The notes under the pieces were generated by a model. It was not told where the DNA came from. It saw only the letters and a list, made by a program, of their open reading frames with translations, and searched no databases. The translations under genes and the position numbers were made by a program. From Myxococcota bacterium (lineage in GTDB: Bacteria > Myxococcota_C > UBA6777), in NCBI GenBank assembly GCA_023150835.1, contig JAKLKB010000005.1, positions 1-64,000 of the forward strand: 64,000 nucleotides of DNA, written 5' to 3'. Position 1 is the first letter of the stretch; every line of letters begins with the position of its first letter. Shown here piece after piece: positions 4,418 to 19,519 of this stretch.

Positions 4418-4630
4418 GGGCGAATGATCGCCACAGATCACATATCCCCCTCTCTTCGCCAAAAGCCCCACAACAAACGCCTGAAACACTCTCCCACGTC
4501 TCATGCGCTTGCCTCGATCGGCCTCAACCACCCCCTGCTCGGCAAGGACTCACCGCGAAGATCTCCGATTCTCCCAAACCAGACTCTCCTGTGCTTGCCT
4601 ACGCTTGCCAACCACGAGAAAGACCCTACG

Positions 4631-5230
4631 ATGCCCAAGATTGTGGATCATGATCAACGTCGCGAAGAACTCCTGACCACCAGCTTCGCCCTGTTTGCAC
4701 AACGCGGTTATGCTGCGGTCACCATGCGCGAACTTGCCCGTGAACTCGACGTCTCCACAGGCTTGCTCTATTACTACTTCCCCAACAAAGAAGCTCTCTT
4801 CGAGCAGATGTTCACCTTGATGTCGCGCCGCGATGTCTCCCGCGTCACCGCCGAACTCGACGCCACCATCCCCATCTCCGAAAAACTCAGCATCCTCTTT
4901 AAATACCTCGCCAAAAACGAAAGCCACTTCCAAAACTTGCTCTTGATGGCGCTTGACTTTCACAGGCAAAACGTAGAACACGGAAGAGACCATGTTCTCC
5001 AAGACATTGTGAAGATCTACAGCGACGCCATCGAAGATCGACTCAACCTTCACGGCACCCGTTTCGGCAGTGTGATCTTTAGCTTCCTTTGTGGGATGTT
5101 CTTCCAACGCTACCTCGCCCCCGACATCAGCTCCATCGAAGAACACCGCCTTTTGATCCAACAACTCTTGCAAGGACTGGCGTTCTCTAACCCACCACTG
5201 CCCGACGCAGTCAACCACAAGAGAAATTGA
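4631..5230 (+). CDS. TetR-family transcriptional regulator, probable regulator of alkB
   Basis: A 199-residue repressor-type protein. The N-terminal helix-turn-helix (about residues 10-57) has the TetR signature: FALFAQRGYAAVTMRELA, then LLYYYFPNKEALFEQM. The C-terminal ligand domain is diverged, as usual. The start is ATG 4631 (MPKIVDHDQRREE), matching the second TetR at 19671, whose protein opens with a near-identical MSPKIVDKEQRRE; the two are paralogues. It lies 213 bp after alkB on the same strand, and its stop overlaps the next gene's start by one base (TGATG). Control of alkB through the dyad at 3164-3177 is inferred from position. Confidence 0.88.
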   Translation: MPKIVDHDQRREELLTTSFALFAQRGYAAVTMRELARELDVSTGLLYYYFPNKEALFEQMFTLMSRRDVSRVTAELDATIPISEKLSILFKYLAKNESHFQNLLLMALDFHRQNVEHGRDHVLQDIVKIYSDAIEDRLNLHGTRFGSVIFSFLCGMFFQRYLAPDISSIEEHRLLIQQLLQGLAFSNPPLPDAVNHKRN

Positions 5231-13964: not shown

Positions 13965-16220
13965 ATGCGCAAAGACCTTCCGCCTCTTTTTTTCGTATGG
14001 GTTTTGCCGTTGCTTTTCAGCACGGTCAGTCCGTCTCACGCTTACACATTCTTTGTCGAGGAAACACCGCCCCAAACGCTTCGCGTCAGTTATTGGCCCT
14101 ACCAACAAGGCCCTGTCCCCTTTTGGGTGGACGCGGATCCTTTTGTGCTTGAAGAACTGCGCTTTTCCTCCCTTGTTCAACTCGCCTTTCAATACTGGAC
14201 CCAAGCCTCTGGAACGGCCCTGCGCGTCCAACTCCACACACTCCCGCTCGATATCGACGCCAGCAACATCGCGCAATCAAGCCGCATCGACGACCAACGG
14301 CCCGATATCCTCCTTGAACACGATGGAAAGATCCTCGAAAGTCTTGGACTGGACGCCGAATATGTCTTGGGGATCGGCGTCCCGATCGTCGAACAAAACC
14401 AACAAGGCGCACTCACCGGCCCATTTGGCGGCAAGATCGTTGATGCCCTTGTGCTGATCAACACGGCTCGCCTACCCAAAGCCGCTCGCCTTCAGCGCTT
14501 GCTGATCCACGAGATCGGCCATGCCCTTGGCATCGGACACACCAACGTCGTCCACCTACCCAACGCCGAAAAACTCCCCGCCATGTTTTTCGATACAGGG
14601 GTCCAACAAAGCCTCCCCTCGCCACACGCCGATGATATCGCAGCGATCAGTAGTCTCTATCCAAACCCAGACTACGAACAACATTACGGAGCCATCGAAG
14701 GCCAAGTCCAACGCGCCGATCGGACGCCTGTGTTTGGAGCCGTCGTGATCGCCGAACCCACCGACGGTTCCGCTCCGATCGCAGCATGGAGCGATCCTGA
14801 CGGCCGATTCGGACTGTACGGACTCCCGCCCAATACTTATACGCTGCATACACGCGCTCTTTCGGGTGATCGCTTCTTGTTTTCGATGGACCCTGCCCTT
14901 CATGTCGGCGGCATCTACAAAAAAGCCACCCGCAGCTTTTGCCCCGAGTCGTACAACGATCTTCCCTTCCTTCAATGCCGCATCCAACCCACCCAAAGCA
15001 CCCCCCTCACCGTCCGCGCAGGGCAACGTCAAACAGGCTTGATCATCCGAGAAGATCAGGGCAACCCTTCCCCTGCGTTGCTCTGCCGCCTTGGTGCATC
15101 GCCACAACTTCCCGAACACCCCGCCCGATTTCCTCCCGAAGTCCCCAACCAAGGGCTACGCAACACGATCTGCCCACCCGATGAACCGCCACAAGAAAAC
15201 CTTGCCTCCGATGCTTCCGAACCCTTCGCAGCAGAAAGAGCCGAACCCCCGCCCGAAATGTCATCGCTCGAAGCACCCGACCAAAAGCCCGAATTGACGG
15301 ACATCTCAGGATGCCGATGCGGCGCTTCCCCCTCATGGCCATCGTCGTGGCTTGCTTTGCTCTTGCTTTTGGCCTTGCGTTCACGCCGGCGCGGTCGCAA
15401 CATCCGCAACATCTCGCGGTGGTCGGCGTTTGTGCTATGCCTGTTTCTTCCTTCCGTTCCTTGGGCGCTCACGGTACGCAAACCGTCTTTTACGATGATG
15501 GCCCAACGAGCGCAGACGGTTGTACGCGCCCGCGCCATCGCACAAAACACCTTGCCTTCGCAGCCATTGCCCTTGCTCCGCACCACCTTTTCCTTGGTCG
15601 AGTGCCTCAAAGGCCCGTGTCCTCAAACCTTTTCGCTCTCGCTTCCAGCGCCGCGATACGGGCGTTATCGGCTCTTTACATCAGGAATACCGCGTTTTTC
15701 TCTTGCCCAAGAGTACATCCTGTTCGTCCGCCCAAACCATCGCCAAAAGCCGATCCTTGTGGGCCTTTCCTTTGGGGTGTTCGATGTACAACCCGATCCC
15801 CAACAGCACCTCCGCTCACGCGGCTGCTTTTTTGCGCCTCTCCCACTCGCAACATTTCGCCGCCTCCTTGATCGCGCCTTACATCCGAGGTCTCGTGCCA
15901 CATCACAACCCACACCACGAAGCCTCCCCACCTCTCGCCCACGCTCCCATCCAACGCCCCCGATGCTCCGAACCCACCACACCACCACACCGACGATCTG
16001 CCCTCTGCGTGCCCATGCTCCCACAAGATCGCAGTCCCCGCTGCGAGACTTCGGATTATCCGCGATCTGTGCGCCCACTTTCCCGCAAGATCGCGGCCCC
16101 CCGCTGCAATGCTTCACAAAGACGCTCGATATCTTGCGTGTCGTGGAAGAATCCAACGGACACCCGCAACGACGGCGGATTCGCAGGAACCGAGCGCAAG
16201 ATCATCCCCTCTTTTTCTAA
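13965..16220 (+). CDS. Matrixin-like metalloprotease fused to a second exported module
   Basis: A 751-codon frame. It opens with a signal peptide (LPPLFFVWVLPLLFSTVSPSHA). A matrixin-type zinc protease has HEIGHALGIGH (His182, Glu183, His186, His192). A carboxypeptidase-regulatory-like beta domain follows (GAIEGQVQRADRTPVFGAVV). At about 445-470 comes a MYXO-CTERM-like tail: CRCGA, hydrophobic LALLLLLAL, then RSRRRGR. There is no stop; a second hydrophobic segment (SAFVLCLFLPSVPWAL) leads into a module with QTVVRARAI ... LVECLKG. That pattern is typical of separate secreted proteins in myxobacteria. TTG 15375 could start this second module independently. The Pro/Ser/Thr/His-rich C-terminus overlaps the convergent aminotransferase gene by 165 bp and may not be real protein. 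Confidence 0.7.
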   Translation: MRKDLPPLFFVWVLPLLFSTVSPSHAYTFFVEETPPQTLRVSYWPYQQGPVPFWVDADPFVLEELRFSSLVQLAFQYWTQASGTALRVQLHTLPLDIDASNIAQSSRIDDQRPDILLEHDGKILESLGLDAEYVLGIGVPIVEQNQQGALTGPFGGKIVDALVLINTARLPKAARLQRLLIHEIGHALGIGHTNVVHLPNAEKLPAMFFDTGVQQSLPSPHADDIAAISSLYPNPDYEQHYGAIEGQVQRADRTPVFGAVVIAEPTDGSAPIAAWSDPDGRFGLYGLPPNTYTLHTRALSGDRFLFSMDPALHVGGIYKKATRSFCPESYNDLPFLQCRIQPTQSTPLTVRAGQRQTGLIIREDQGNPSPALLCRLGASPQLPEHPARFPPEVPNQGLRNTICPPDEPPQENLASDASEPFAAERAEPPPEMSSLEAPDQKPELTDISGCRCGASPSWPSSWLALLLLLALRSRRRGRNIRNISRWSAFVLCLFLPSVPWALTVRKPSFTMMAQRAQTVVRARAIAQNTLPSQPLPLLRTTFSLVECLKGPCPQTFSLSLPAPRYGRYRLFTSGIPRFSLAQEYILFVRPNHRQKPILVGLSFGVFDVQPDPQQHLRSRGCFFAPLPLATFRRLLDRALHPRSRATSQPTPRSLPTSRPRSHPTPPMLRTHHTTTPTICPLRAHAPTRSQSPLRDFGLSAICAPTFPQDRGPPLQCFTKTLDILRVVEESNGHPQRRRIRRNRAQDHPLFF

Positions 16221-17363
16221 CACAGCCATAAGCGCCGCTGGAGCCACCCCCTCCATCCGAAAAGCCAACAAGCTCGCTTCTTTGCCCGCAGGCGTGACGA
16301 CTGACACACCTTCGAGCGATTCAAGCGCCGCCCGAACCTTCGGAACCATCGCTGCGATCCGCGCAAAGATCCACGGCCAACCCACCTCTGTTTCCAAGAA
16401 CTCAAGCGATGCCACCAACCCCTCCAGCAACGGGCGAAAACGCCCTCCCGCCAGATAACGACCCGCCCCCTCCGTCGGCACATAATACGGAGCCGTCTGA
16501 TCGTACCACCCTGCATTCCGCATCGAAAACGTCCCCACAAAGGTGGGTTGAAGTCGCGATTGCCAAGCCCGATCCACAAACAAAACCCCCGTCCCTTCGG
16601 GTCCACAAAGCCATTTCTGACAAGGAGCCGCCAAAAAGTCGATCTGAAGGGCTTTCACATCCAGCGGAAATACCCCCAGCGATTGTGCCGCATCCACGAG
16701 CAACGGGATGCCCCGCGCTCGACACATCGCCCCCACCGCCTCGATCGCAAAGCGACGTCCGTCCAGATACGACACATGCGACAACGCCACCAGTCGCGTA
16801 CGCGGAGATATCGCCTGTTCCAACAACGCCGCATCTTCTTGCGCATCACCACGAAACGGCAGATACCGCACCTCCACCCCAAATCTCCGATGGATCTGCG
16901 CCAACGGAGCCAACAGGCCCATGTGTTCTTGATCGGACGTGAGGATCTGATCTCCCGCCTGCCAAGGCAGTCCCCACAAAACGATGTTCATCCCTTCGGT
17001 GGTGTTTTGCGTCCAGATCACTTCCTCTTCTGCGGCCCCCAACAACGCGGCCAACAGCGCGTGAAGATGGGCTTGGCGCTTCAAAAAACGCAGATAGCCC
17101 GAGATCGCAGAACGCCCCCCCAAAAGCTCCTGCTCTTGGGCTTCTTGGAGCGCTTGGAGACTTCGCAACGGCAACGGGCCGCACGTCCCGCTGTTCCAAT
17201 ACCCACCCTCTCGCAGCACAGGAAAAGCGCCGCGCATACGCGACCATGCTCCCGCATCTTGCGCATGATCTATCACTTCTTTGCTTCGCTTGCTCAACGT
17301 CTCTACCCTTTCCAACGTCTGTCTTGTCTCACCGACTCTCGGCACGCTGACCGCTTCTTGCAT
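16056..17363 (-). CDS. Class V aminotransferase (cysteine desulfurase/selenocysteine lyase-like)
   Basis: About 435 residues, a PLP-dependent fold-type I enzyme. Visible features are the early YWNSGTCGPLPLRSLQ segment, TQNTTEGMNIVLWG, LVALSHVSYLDGRRF, the PLP-binding LLVDAAQSLGVFPLD and the likely Schiff-base lysine in CQKWLCGPEGTGVLF. It resembles the CsdA-like / isopenicillin-N-epimerase-like branch; the substrate is not assignable. ATG 17363 is chosen; GTG 17375 is in frame four codons earlier, and neither has a strong ribosome site. It is divergent from the lipoprotein hydrolase at 17435 and convergent with the metalloprotease frame. Confidence 0.82.
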   Translation of the reverse strand: MQEAVSVPRVGETRQTLERVETLSKRSKEVIDHAQDAGAWSRMRGAFPVLREGGYWNSGTCGPLPLRSLQALQEAQEQELLGGRSAISGYLRFLKRQAHLHALLAALLGAAEEEVIWTQNTTEGMNIVLWGLPWQAGDQILTSDQEHMGLLAPLAQIHRRFGVEVRYLPFRGDAQEDAALLEQAISPRTRLVALSHVSYLDGRRFAIEAVGAMCRARGIPLLVDAAQSLGVFPLDVKALQIDFLAAPCQKWLCGPEGTGVLFVDRAWQSRLQPTFVGTFSMRNAGWYDQTAPYYVPTEGAGRYLAGGRFRPLLEGLVASLEFLETEVGWPWIFARIAAMVPKVRAALESLEGVSVVTPAGKEASLLAFRMEGVAPAALMAVLEKEGMILRSVPANPPSLRVSVGFFHDTQDIERLCEALQRGAAILRESGRTDRG

Positions 17364-17434
17364 AACCACGCGCACAAGGTATCTTGTTTCCGTCTATTTG
17401 GGTGTGTTTTCTTTTTCATCGGCAGGCAAAAAAA

Positions 17435-19519
17435 ATGAACAAACGAAGCGGATTGTTTTGGTGGATCGCGATGGGGTTCGTGGGATGGGGACTTTGGTCC
17501 TGTGGCTCTCCTTCGACAGCACCTTCCTCACAAGCCCAAGAGGCCGCCCGAACGCCCACCGGCTTGTTTTTTGGTTATCCCACCGATGGGAAATTTACAA
17601 CCGAAAACTTCTACAACTTCCCTTTTCCGCACACCTTGCGCATCAAAGAAAACGGAACGCCCGACCTCACCTTTTTTCCTGCCCCAAAGCGCGTCCAAAA
17701 ATGCCCGCTCCCTCCAAGCAAAGACGCCTTTGTCGGCCAACTGATCGGCGCTTATGAACCTGACGACTTCCTCCGTAATCTGGTCAAACAAGCCAACAAC
17801 GGCGCTGTCGGCGCAGGCAACAACCCAACCCTGTACTTGCGCTTCAATCGTCCCCTCGCGGCCCGTTCTCTCCCGCCCGTCGAAGCCACCCTACACGACA
17901 CCAGCCCTGCTTTTCTCGTCAACATCGAACCCAACTCGCCCCGCCTCGGTCAGCGCCTGCCGATCCGCGCCTACCCCCAACTGCGCACCCGCTTTGCTCC
18001 TGATTTTCTCGCCGCCTTTCGACCCGAACCCGGCTTTTCTCTCGCTCCCAACGAACATTACGCGCTCGTGCTAACCCGTTCGATCCGAGACGAAGAGGGC
18101 TGGCCTCTTGCCCCCATGCCCTTGCTTGACACCTTGAACGCCCAAACCGCTCCCACCACTCCCCATCTCAAAGCCTTGTGGGACGCCTACCAACCCTTCT
18201 GGGCTTTCCTCAAAAGCAAAACCTCCCTCAAGCCCGAAGATATCGCCGCTGTCAGCGTGTTTCGCGGTGGCGATCCACTCCAAGAACAACGCAAGATCGT
18301 TCAATTCTTGCGCGAAAAACTCCCTGCCCCCACCCCTCCCAAAGACATCACCTGCACCGATCCCGGAGCCTCCCGCGCTTATCTTCTTTGCAAAGGAACC
18401 TACACTTCCCCCAACTTCCAGTTCGGCGACCCTCCTTATCTTGATGAAAAAACAGGATTTTTCAGCTACGAAAAAGACGGAACACCGATCTACAAAATGG
18501 AAGAGCTGCGATTTGCCCTTGCTTGGCCCAAAAGCGCTTTTGAGGATGGAGCACTACGCGAACGCCCCCTTCCGATCGTCCTTTACGCACACGGAACGGG
18601 TGGCGATTATCAAAGCTTCATCAGCGACAATACCGCAGAACGCCTCGCTCGGATGGGCATCGTCAGCTTGGGCATCGATCAGGTCATGCACGGCAATCGG
18701 GGTCGAAAACTTGGCAGCGTCGATCTCGACTTTCTGTTCTTTAACGCTCTCAACCTCCCCGCTGCCCGCGATAACGTCCGTCAATCCGCGCTCGATTACC
18801 ATTGGCTGGTCCGTCTGATGCAGACCTTCACACTTGCTCACGACGGACACAACCTGCGCATCGACCCCAAGCGGATCTGGTTTATGGGTCACAGCCAAGG
18901 CGGCTTGATCGGGCCGCTGTTTCTGGCTTTTGAACACAAAGTCCCTGCCGCTTTCCTTTCCGCTCCCGGGGCTTTGCTTGTTGGGATGCTTCTGAGCAAA
19001 AACGAACCCAAAGACCCCATCGAGATCCCCGCTGTGATCAGTTATCTCGTCTGCGATGGTGATGCCGCCAAAACCCCCTTCCATCCGGTCTTTTCTGTTC
19101 TCCAAAGCCTGCTCGATCCCGCCGATCCCGTCAATTATGGCCCCCTGATCCTCGCCGAAGACCGCCCTCCCATGCAGTTCTTTATGACCAAGGGAAACAC
19201 CGACAACTACGCTCCCCCCGCTGTCTTTGATCCGCTTGCCGTCGCCATGAAACTCCCGATGTTCGGCCCTTCACAAGACAACCTCATCGGACTCACTTTG
19301 CGCGGCGTCCCCACCTACCCGCTTCCCGTCAGCGGAAACCTTACCCACCCTTCGGGAACTCCCATCACTGCGGGCTTTACACAACACCAAGAATGCAAAT
19401 ACTCCAGCGGGGGCCTCTGTGACGGCCACTTTGTCGCCTTCCACAACCCCGATGCCTTGCGCAATTGGCAAAGCTTCTTCCGCTCCCTCACCAACCGCAC
19501 CACCGCCGAAGTCCACTAA
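17435..19519 (+). CDS. Alpha/beta-hydrolase lipoprotein (lipase/esterase-like)
   Basis: A 694-residue lipoprotein. The signal ends in lipobox LWSC, so it is probably anchored in a membrane. The N-terminal half is a large beta-rich region of a type seen in extracellular lipases. The hydrolase core has the oxyanion-hole segment VLYAHGTGGDY and the nucleophile elbow MGHSQGG with Ser487. Expected Asp and His of the triad lie further downstream (candidate His in GLCDGHFVAFH). The substrate is unknown; esters or lipids are likely. The start at ATG 17435 gives the clean lipoprotein signal. The TetR gene follows on the same strand after about 150 bp, so the pair may form a regulated unit. Confidence 0.85.
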   Translation: MNKRSGLFWWIAMGFVGWGLWSCGSPSTAPSSQAQEAARTPTGLFFGYPTDGKFTTENFYNFPFPHTLRIKENGTPDLTFFPAPKRVQKCPLPPSKDAFVGQLIGAYEPDDFLRNLVKQANNGAVGAGNNPTLYLRFNRPLAARSLPPVEATLHDTSPAFLVNIEPNSPRLGQRLPIRAYPQLRTRFAPDFLAAFRPEPGFSLAPNEHYALVLTRSIRDEEGWPLAPMPLLDTLNAQTAPTTPHLKALWDAYQPFWAFLKSKTSLKPEDIAAVSVFRGGDPLQEQRKIVQFLREKLPAPTPPKDITCTDPGASRAYLLCKGTYTSPNFQFGDPPYLDEKTGFFSYEKDGTPIYKMEELRFALAWPKSAFEDGALRERPLPIVLYAHGTGGDYQSFISDNTAERLARMGIVSLGIDQVMHGNRGRKLGSVDLDFLFFNALNLPAARDNVRQSALDYHWLVRLMQTFTLAHDGHNLRIDPKRIWFMGHSQGGLIGPLFLAFEHKVPAAFLSAPGALLVGMLLSKNEPKDPIEIPAVISYLVCDGDAAKTPFHPVFSVLQSLLDPADPVNYGPLILAEDRPPMQFFMTKGNTDNYAPPAVFDPLAVAMKLPMFGPSQDNLIGLTLRGVPTYPLPVSGNLTHPSGTPITAGFTQHQECKYSSGGLCDGHFVAFHNPDALRNWQSFFRSLTNRTTAEVH

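Follow-up and report, generated by a model that had tools for sequence, protein, structure and literature searches.

A matrixin-type metalloprotease and a second secreted module, predicted to share the fold of TIMPs and NTR domains, are encoded as one chain of 751 amino acids in the window, that is, the whole 64,000-nucleotide stretch of DNA analysed here. We propose, with a probability of about two in three, that the matrixin and its cognate TIMP-fold regulator are made as a single precursor and separated after export. Direct support comes from the open frame, present in two genomes, from an outgroup with split genes, from the predicted folds, from the pairing of module and matrixin across bacteria and from the recurrence of the junction.

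Architecture of the fused frame

The frame occupies 13965–16220 on the forward strand, with its stop codon at 16218. It opens with an N-terminal signal peptide, MRKDLPPLFFVWVLPLLFSTVSPSHA (13965–14042, assigned by eye), followed by the metalloprotease domain (14043–14693). The Pfam model PF00413 scores 28.2 bits on this domain alone against a cut-off of 24, and 23.8 bits when scored within the whole ORF. The domain carries the zinc motif HEIGHALGIGH (14508–14540) and a Met-turn candidate (14580–14591), whose Met column is conserved at 90% or more, and its predicted model (pLDDT 86) matches MMP12 (Z 15.4) and karilysin (Z 15.3). The HExxHxxGxxH zinc motif, the Met-turn and the modelled fold place the first half among the matrixins; no other ORF in the 64-kb window contains a matrixin motif. 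A carboxypeptidase regulatory-like domain (14694–14861; PF13620, 32.9 bits versus a cut-off of 32.3) adjoins the protease domain.

The protease half closes with a MYXO-CTERM-like tail (15309–15398) that shows a short cysteine motif, a helix and an arginine-rich cluster: GCRCG (15309–15323), WLALLLLLAL (15348–15377) and RSRRRGR. The tail lies inside the chain rather than at its C-terminus. The frame runs on through a basic loop, RSRRRGRNIRNISR (15378–15419), presumed to form the cytoplasmic end of helix 1 and the n-region of the next segment, and through a second hydrophobic, signal-peptide-like segment, WSAFVLCLFLPSVPWA (15420–15467), which ends in VPWA and not in a canonical AxA. The module itself (15468–15971), placed by its predicted model, Foldseek and dN/dS, has the presumed mature start LTVRKPSF; the remaining C-terminal tail (15972–16220) is poorly conserved. 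That a Cys-x-Cys motif, a hydrophobic run and RSRRRGR lead on to a second hydrophobic segment and an LVECLKG-type module had been pointed out in an earlier note on this DNA, and one open frame does connect them. The LVECLKG motif itself lies at 15594–15614 (counted by hand), past position 15500 at which the note ended the feature. The note saw the two-part secreted layout but missed both the TIMP/NTR fold and the matrixin pairing.

The MYXO-CTERM model TIGR03901 scores 9.9–13.2 bits on the window's tail, below its cut-off of 20, and 28.4 bits, above it, on the tail of the orthologue in a congener described below. The same model matches 29 places in the window's genome and 22–47 in each of five genomes of the family. 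The myxosortase model NF040593 gives a partial match in the window's genome (98.9 bits against a cut-off of 180).

Conservation and origin of the fusion

A second genome of the genus (CAUJFU010000020.1, Myxococcota bacterium KLAP109) shares the open frame, there 757 codons long, with 88% identity to the window over the module query; 36 nt are inserted in frame at its junction, among them a near-perfect repeat. Codon comparison of the two congeners gave a dN/dS of 0.16 for the protease (408 codons), about 0.95 for the junction (54 codons), 0.10 for the module (15468–15886, 140 codons) and 0.79 for the tail (15887–16220), where it climbs beyond about 15960. The low values in protease and module indicate that both halves are selected in the same frame. 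A frameshift separating two genes, one of the options raised in the earlier note, is rejected because both assemblies keep protease and module conserved within a single frame. A signal-like ORF in another frame of the forward strand, MPMRRFPLMAIVVACFALAF (15311–15871), is present as the note stated, but it is rejected as coding: the congeners differ at 37 bases in the module, and 28 of these changes sit at the third positions of main-frame codons, the first positions of this ORF.

A genome from another genus of the same family (PCBK01000051.1, Deltaproteobacteria bacterium NP119) has the two parts as separate genes. Its protease, of 490 amino acids, ends in a Cys-helix-Arg/Lys tail and a stop codon, and a gene for a 201-residue module adjoins it; relatives in which a stop directly follows the tail of the protease, as the earlier note had suggested seeking, thus exist. 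Because the congener is fused and the other genus has separate genes, the fused state is probably derived within the window's family. In-frame gene fusion, also among the earlier options, is supported by the congener's open frame, the split genes of the outgroup and the same architecture in 55 further chains.

As a separate observation, the congener's junction contains a tandem repeat of ~30 nt that duplicates the stretch spanning the helix end and RSRR and introduces an in-frame ATG.

Fold of the second module

The window's module has no Pfam match at E 0.1 and no NCBIfam family, and no PDB chain matches it by sequence. Viral structures gave no match at E 0.001, and searches with one module each found none in 50,697 phage records and none in plasmid records. 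The profile matches of 75 module members do not include any TIMP model; Pfam NtA is matched weakly by five of them (best E 0.02), and the other families appear as single or double weak matches.

A model built on an alignment of 75 relatives reached a mean pLDDT of 89.8 and a pTM of 0.79. Against solved structures, Foldseek ranks 1–23 are all TIMP-1, -2 or -3, the PCOLCE1 NTR domain or agrin NtA (best E 6.5e-4), with the first other fold at rank 24. The TM-scores of these 23 are modest (0.37–0.49 by query length), and the fold call therefore relies on how uniform the list is and on structural alignment, which gave Z 10.4 for N-TIMP-3 (116 residues, rmsd 2.9) and Z 9.9 for NtA. We regard the TIMP/NTR (OB-type) fold predicted for the second module as well supported.

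In TIMPs, the free N-terminus sits at the zinc of the protease. The alignment to N-TIMP-3 begins at residue 2 of both the module model and the TIMP chain. Since the model begins directly after the presumed cleavage point, the mature N-terminus is predicted to lie where the zinc-binding N-terminus of TIMP does. The hallmarks of the TIMP family are an N-terminal Cys-x-Cys and conserved disulphides. The module domains lack TIMP's conserved N-terminal cysteines, and 59 of the 132 scored have no cysteine at all; by Cys-x-Cys and by sequence model, the module appears to fall outside the TIMP family proper.

Pairing with matrixins across bacteria

A search of 386 sampled genomes with the module profile gave matches in 63. 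At 65 of 81 fetched loci, an ORF with the matrixin motif HExxHxxGxx[HD] lies within 3 kb of the module or in the same chain, on the same strand in every one of the 65; the motif occurred in 0 of 3434 reversed ORFs used as a control. The protease is downstream of the module in 46 of these loci and upstream in eight, and the one-chain cases place the protease first in six and the module first in five. The 81 loci are a non-random set, the best-scoring of a longer list of places with some picked for long frames, so that the share of single chains among them is inflated. Outside the window's family, pairing was found in 38 of 46 genomes, and the window's own genome has six module copies, at least five with a matrixin motif. 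No matrixin motif was found near the module at the other 16 loci, which include five single chains whose motif has changed or been lost (L114, L117, L124, L126 and L128) and two loci close to a contig end (L063 and L133). These sequence comparisons make the pairing of module family and matrixins well supported.

Two other layouts were seen. The module stands ahead of the metalloprotease in one chain, in the position of a prodomain, at L122, L123, L124, L126, L127, L128, L137, L138 and L117. A tandem pair of TIMP-fold modules is encoded per ORF beside a protease of the HExGHAIGFPH type at L134 (1009–1893) and L136 (3160–4083).

Recurrence of the junction

In the phylum of genome G284, 56 of 68 genomes contain the module, mostly within a frame of 800–900 codons, and 53 of these 56 have a fused chain. 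The set analysed (55 fetched loci plus L114 and L125, with the module-bearing genome G433 left out) comprises 53 fused loci, two stand-alone modules (L175 and L228) and two loci cut by a contig end (L226 and L227). Together with the window, its congener, L103 (genome G159) and L131, a different paralogue from the outgroup genome, the 53 make up 57 fused chains.

Every one of the 57 has a first helix, a loop with at least three Lys or Arg residues and a second helix. The motif [AVSTG]xA stands at the end of the second helix in 56 of the 57 and after helix 1 in 19; helix boundaries and cleavage sites were assigned by simple scripts, not by SignalP or transmembrane predictors. The same one-chain solution appears to have evolved in three or more lineages.

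A model for export and regulation

In the proposed model, the N-terminal signal peptide would export the MMP-like matrixin, and the MYXO-CTERM-like C-terminal helix of the protease would stop in the membrane. The basic loop would remain cytoplasmic and double as the n-region of the second signal-like segment, which would export the TIMP/NTR-fold domain. Signal peptidase would cleave the second segment and a sorting cleavage would take place at the first helix; we infer this topology and both cleavages. The TIMP-fold domain would then restrain its cognate matrixin, plausibly, by analogy with TIMPs, by docking its newly freed N-terminus at the zinc. As a fusion, protease and regulator would be produced in equal amounts and delivered together. 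Counting against the model are the junction dN/dS of ~0.95, the VPWA of the window, the sub-cut-off MYXO-CTERM score, the partial myxosortase match, the absence of TIMP's conserved N-terminal cysteines and the 16 loci where no matrixin motif was found near the module.

The first half of the precursor model has a precedent, by analogy, in MXAN_5598 of Myxococcus xanthus, an internal MYXO-CTERM protein that, in the available part of that report, is suggested to stem from a two-gene fusion and to have its N-terminal part processed or sorted (Guo, Haft and Wall; PMC11980579). It shares with the window's protein the mid-chain MYXO-CTERM and the proposed gene fusion, but, as described there, it combines an adhesin, an outer-membrane barrel and OmpA domains and has no protease/TIMP pair.

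Role of the module

The strongest rival to restraint of the protease is that the domain is another kind of partner: it may serve latency or folding, act in adhesion like the NTR domain of agrin, or be a substrate that the matrixin cuts and sets free. We give this family of readings substantial weight, if somewhat less than even odds. It is favoured by the chains in which the module precedes the protease as a prodomain would, by the structural match to NtA and by Listeria monocytogenes, whose TIMP-like Tim is described as cleaved and released by the metzincin Mtz (PMC8235301, in the available sections). It also gains from the fused chains without HExxH. The motif is absent from 27 of the 57 (L114, L174, L176, L178, L180, L188–L192, L195–L197 and others, all in the phylum of G284) and complete in 27; the other three chains are cut off before the protease. 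Most of the 27 chains without it still match the matrixin profile, several of them weakly, and are apparent pseudo-proteases that keep the TIMP-fold domain. They imply that the module can be kept without a target for inhibition, and may represent inactive relatives whose TIMP-fold domain serves binding. The loss of HExxH in about half of the fused chains weighs against simple inhibition. Against this, the TIMP register of the N-terminus and the steady pairing with matrixins fit an active-site partner at least equally well. Given the chains without HExxH, the cleavage in Listeria and the module-first chains, regulation or cognate binding is the likely role of the module, and the odds of active-site inhibition are about even.

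Expression and topology of the second half

Two further readings concern the junction, and we consider each of them unlikely. One is that the module is translated, wholly or in addition, from an internal start of its own, at TTG 15375 or a TTG in helix 1, the fused frame being a mere overlap without a stop. In-frame TTGs occur at 15357, 15363, 15369 and 15375 (15375–15377, the codon named in the earlier note), the congener has the ATG in its duplicated stretch, and a start codon of one kind or another lies between the two helices in 26 of the 57 fused chains. At L062 (~4630–4670, reverse strand), in the C99 paralogue pair, the end of a MYXO-CTERM matrixin gene overlaps the start of the neighbouring module gene, a stop/start overlap that agrees with this reading and is plausible as a step preceding fusion. 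However, no SD-like motif was seen ahead of the window's TTGs, and in 53 genomes from the phylum of G284 the protease is not closed by its own stop codon. In 31 of the 57 fused chains, and likewise in L103 and L131 from other lineages, there is no ATG, GTG or TTG between the helices. These chains make continuous translation the simplest reading; TTG 15375 is there, but the need for it is not.

The other is that the second segment stays uncleaved and that a two-helix hairpin tethers the protease and the TIMP-like domain on the membrane's outer face. The junction has the layout of a helical hairpin, and the VPWA of the window, with Pro at −3, is the single miss among the 57 chains for [AVSTG]xA. 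Retention of the motif in the other 56, including the congener, argues for cleavage instead.

A faulty assembly, a sequencing error or a decaying read-through joining two genes is highly improbable even though both genomes are draft assemblies and the junction dN/dS is near 1, given that two genomes assembled separately share the frame, that the indel is divisible by three, that dN/dS is low on either side and that the architecture recurs elsewhere.

Relation to known systems

Neighbouring genes for a metzincin and a TIMP-like protein are already known from Listeria, and an internal MYXO-CTERM from MXAN_5598. In Listeria, mtz codes for a secreted metzincin and tim for a protein with a predicted likeness to TIMP, and pairs of this kind were reported in other Firmicutes as well; the authors state that they found no bacterial TIMP-like protein described previously, and base the likeness of Tim on Phyre2 only (PMC8235301). 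The window shares with that system a metzincin and a TIMP-like partner, both exported, but mtz and tim are, as described there, separate and phage-linked genes, and Tim is a lipoprotein cleaved by Mtz; Tim and the window's module family are likened here by description only. Among the papers listed in literature searches on bacterial TIMP-like and NTR proteins, the Listeria paper was the sole bacterial case recognised; neither the wide module family nor its fold nor the recurring single-chain layout came up there.

A further bacterial matrixin with a dedicated protein inhibitor is given by the title of PDB entry 8b2q, karilysin with potempin A from Tannerella forsythia. Potempin A is not among the 50 listed structural matches of the module. 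Karilysin and potempin A are separate proteins, unlike the window's single chain. The closest animal counterparts are MMP/TIMP, NTR and agrin NtA, with which the window's protein shares, in its models, the matrixin fold, the TIMP/NTR fold and the N-TIMP register of the N-terminus; unlike animal TIMP, the module lacks conserved cysteines and is encoded beside the protease or in one chain with it.

The matrixin/TIMP-fold pair, separate or fused, across many bacteria suggests a largely unnamed protease-and-regulator system. A domain family absent from Pfam and NCBIfam thereby gains a fold and a partner, and the natural fusions offer a set for testing how protease and module interact. The export layout, with a stop-transfer helix, a shared basic loop and an internal signal, would yield two exported proteins per gene and appears to be used repeatedly. 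The findings also bear on the origin of the animal MMP/TIMP pair. A broader reading, which we put forward tentatively, is that the widespread TIMP-fold family is a standing matrixin regulator, that several lineages make it as one precursor with its protease and that cleavage at the internal signal parts the pair and frees a zinc-docking N-terminus; if so, MMP/TIMP-style control would be an old bacterial invention.

Flanking features

The fused frame overlaps by 165 nt (16056–16220) a convergent class-V aminotransferase gene (16056–17375, reverse strand), which lies outside the matrixin/module system, and its real end may differ. Further on, 17429–19516 (forward strand) encodes an exported protein to which the VolA/Pla-1 lipase model gives 52.5 bits, below its cut-off of 383.9. 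Between the convergent genes, at ~16010–16105, repeated stretches bearing GATCGC are visible by eye.
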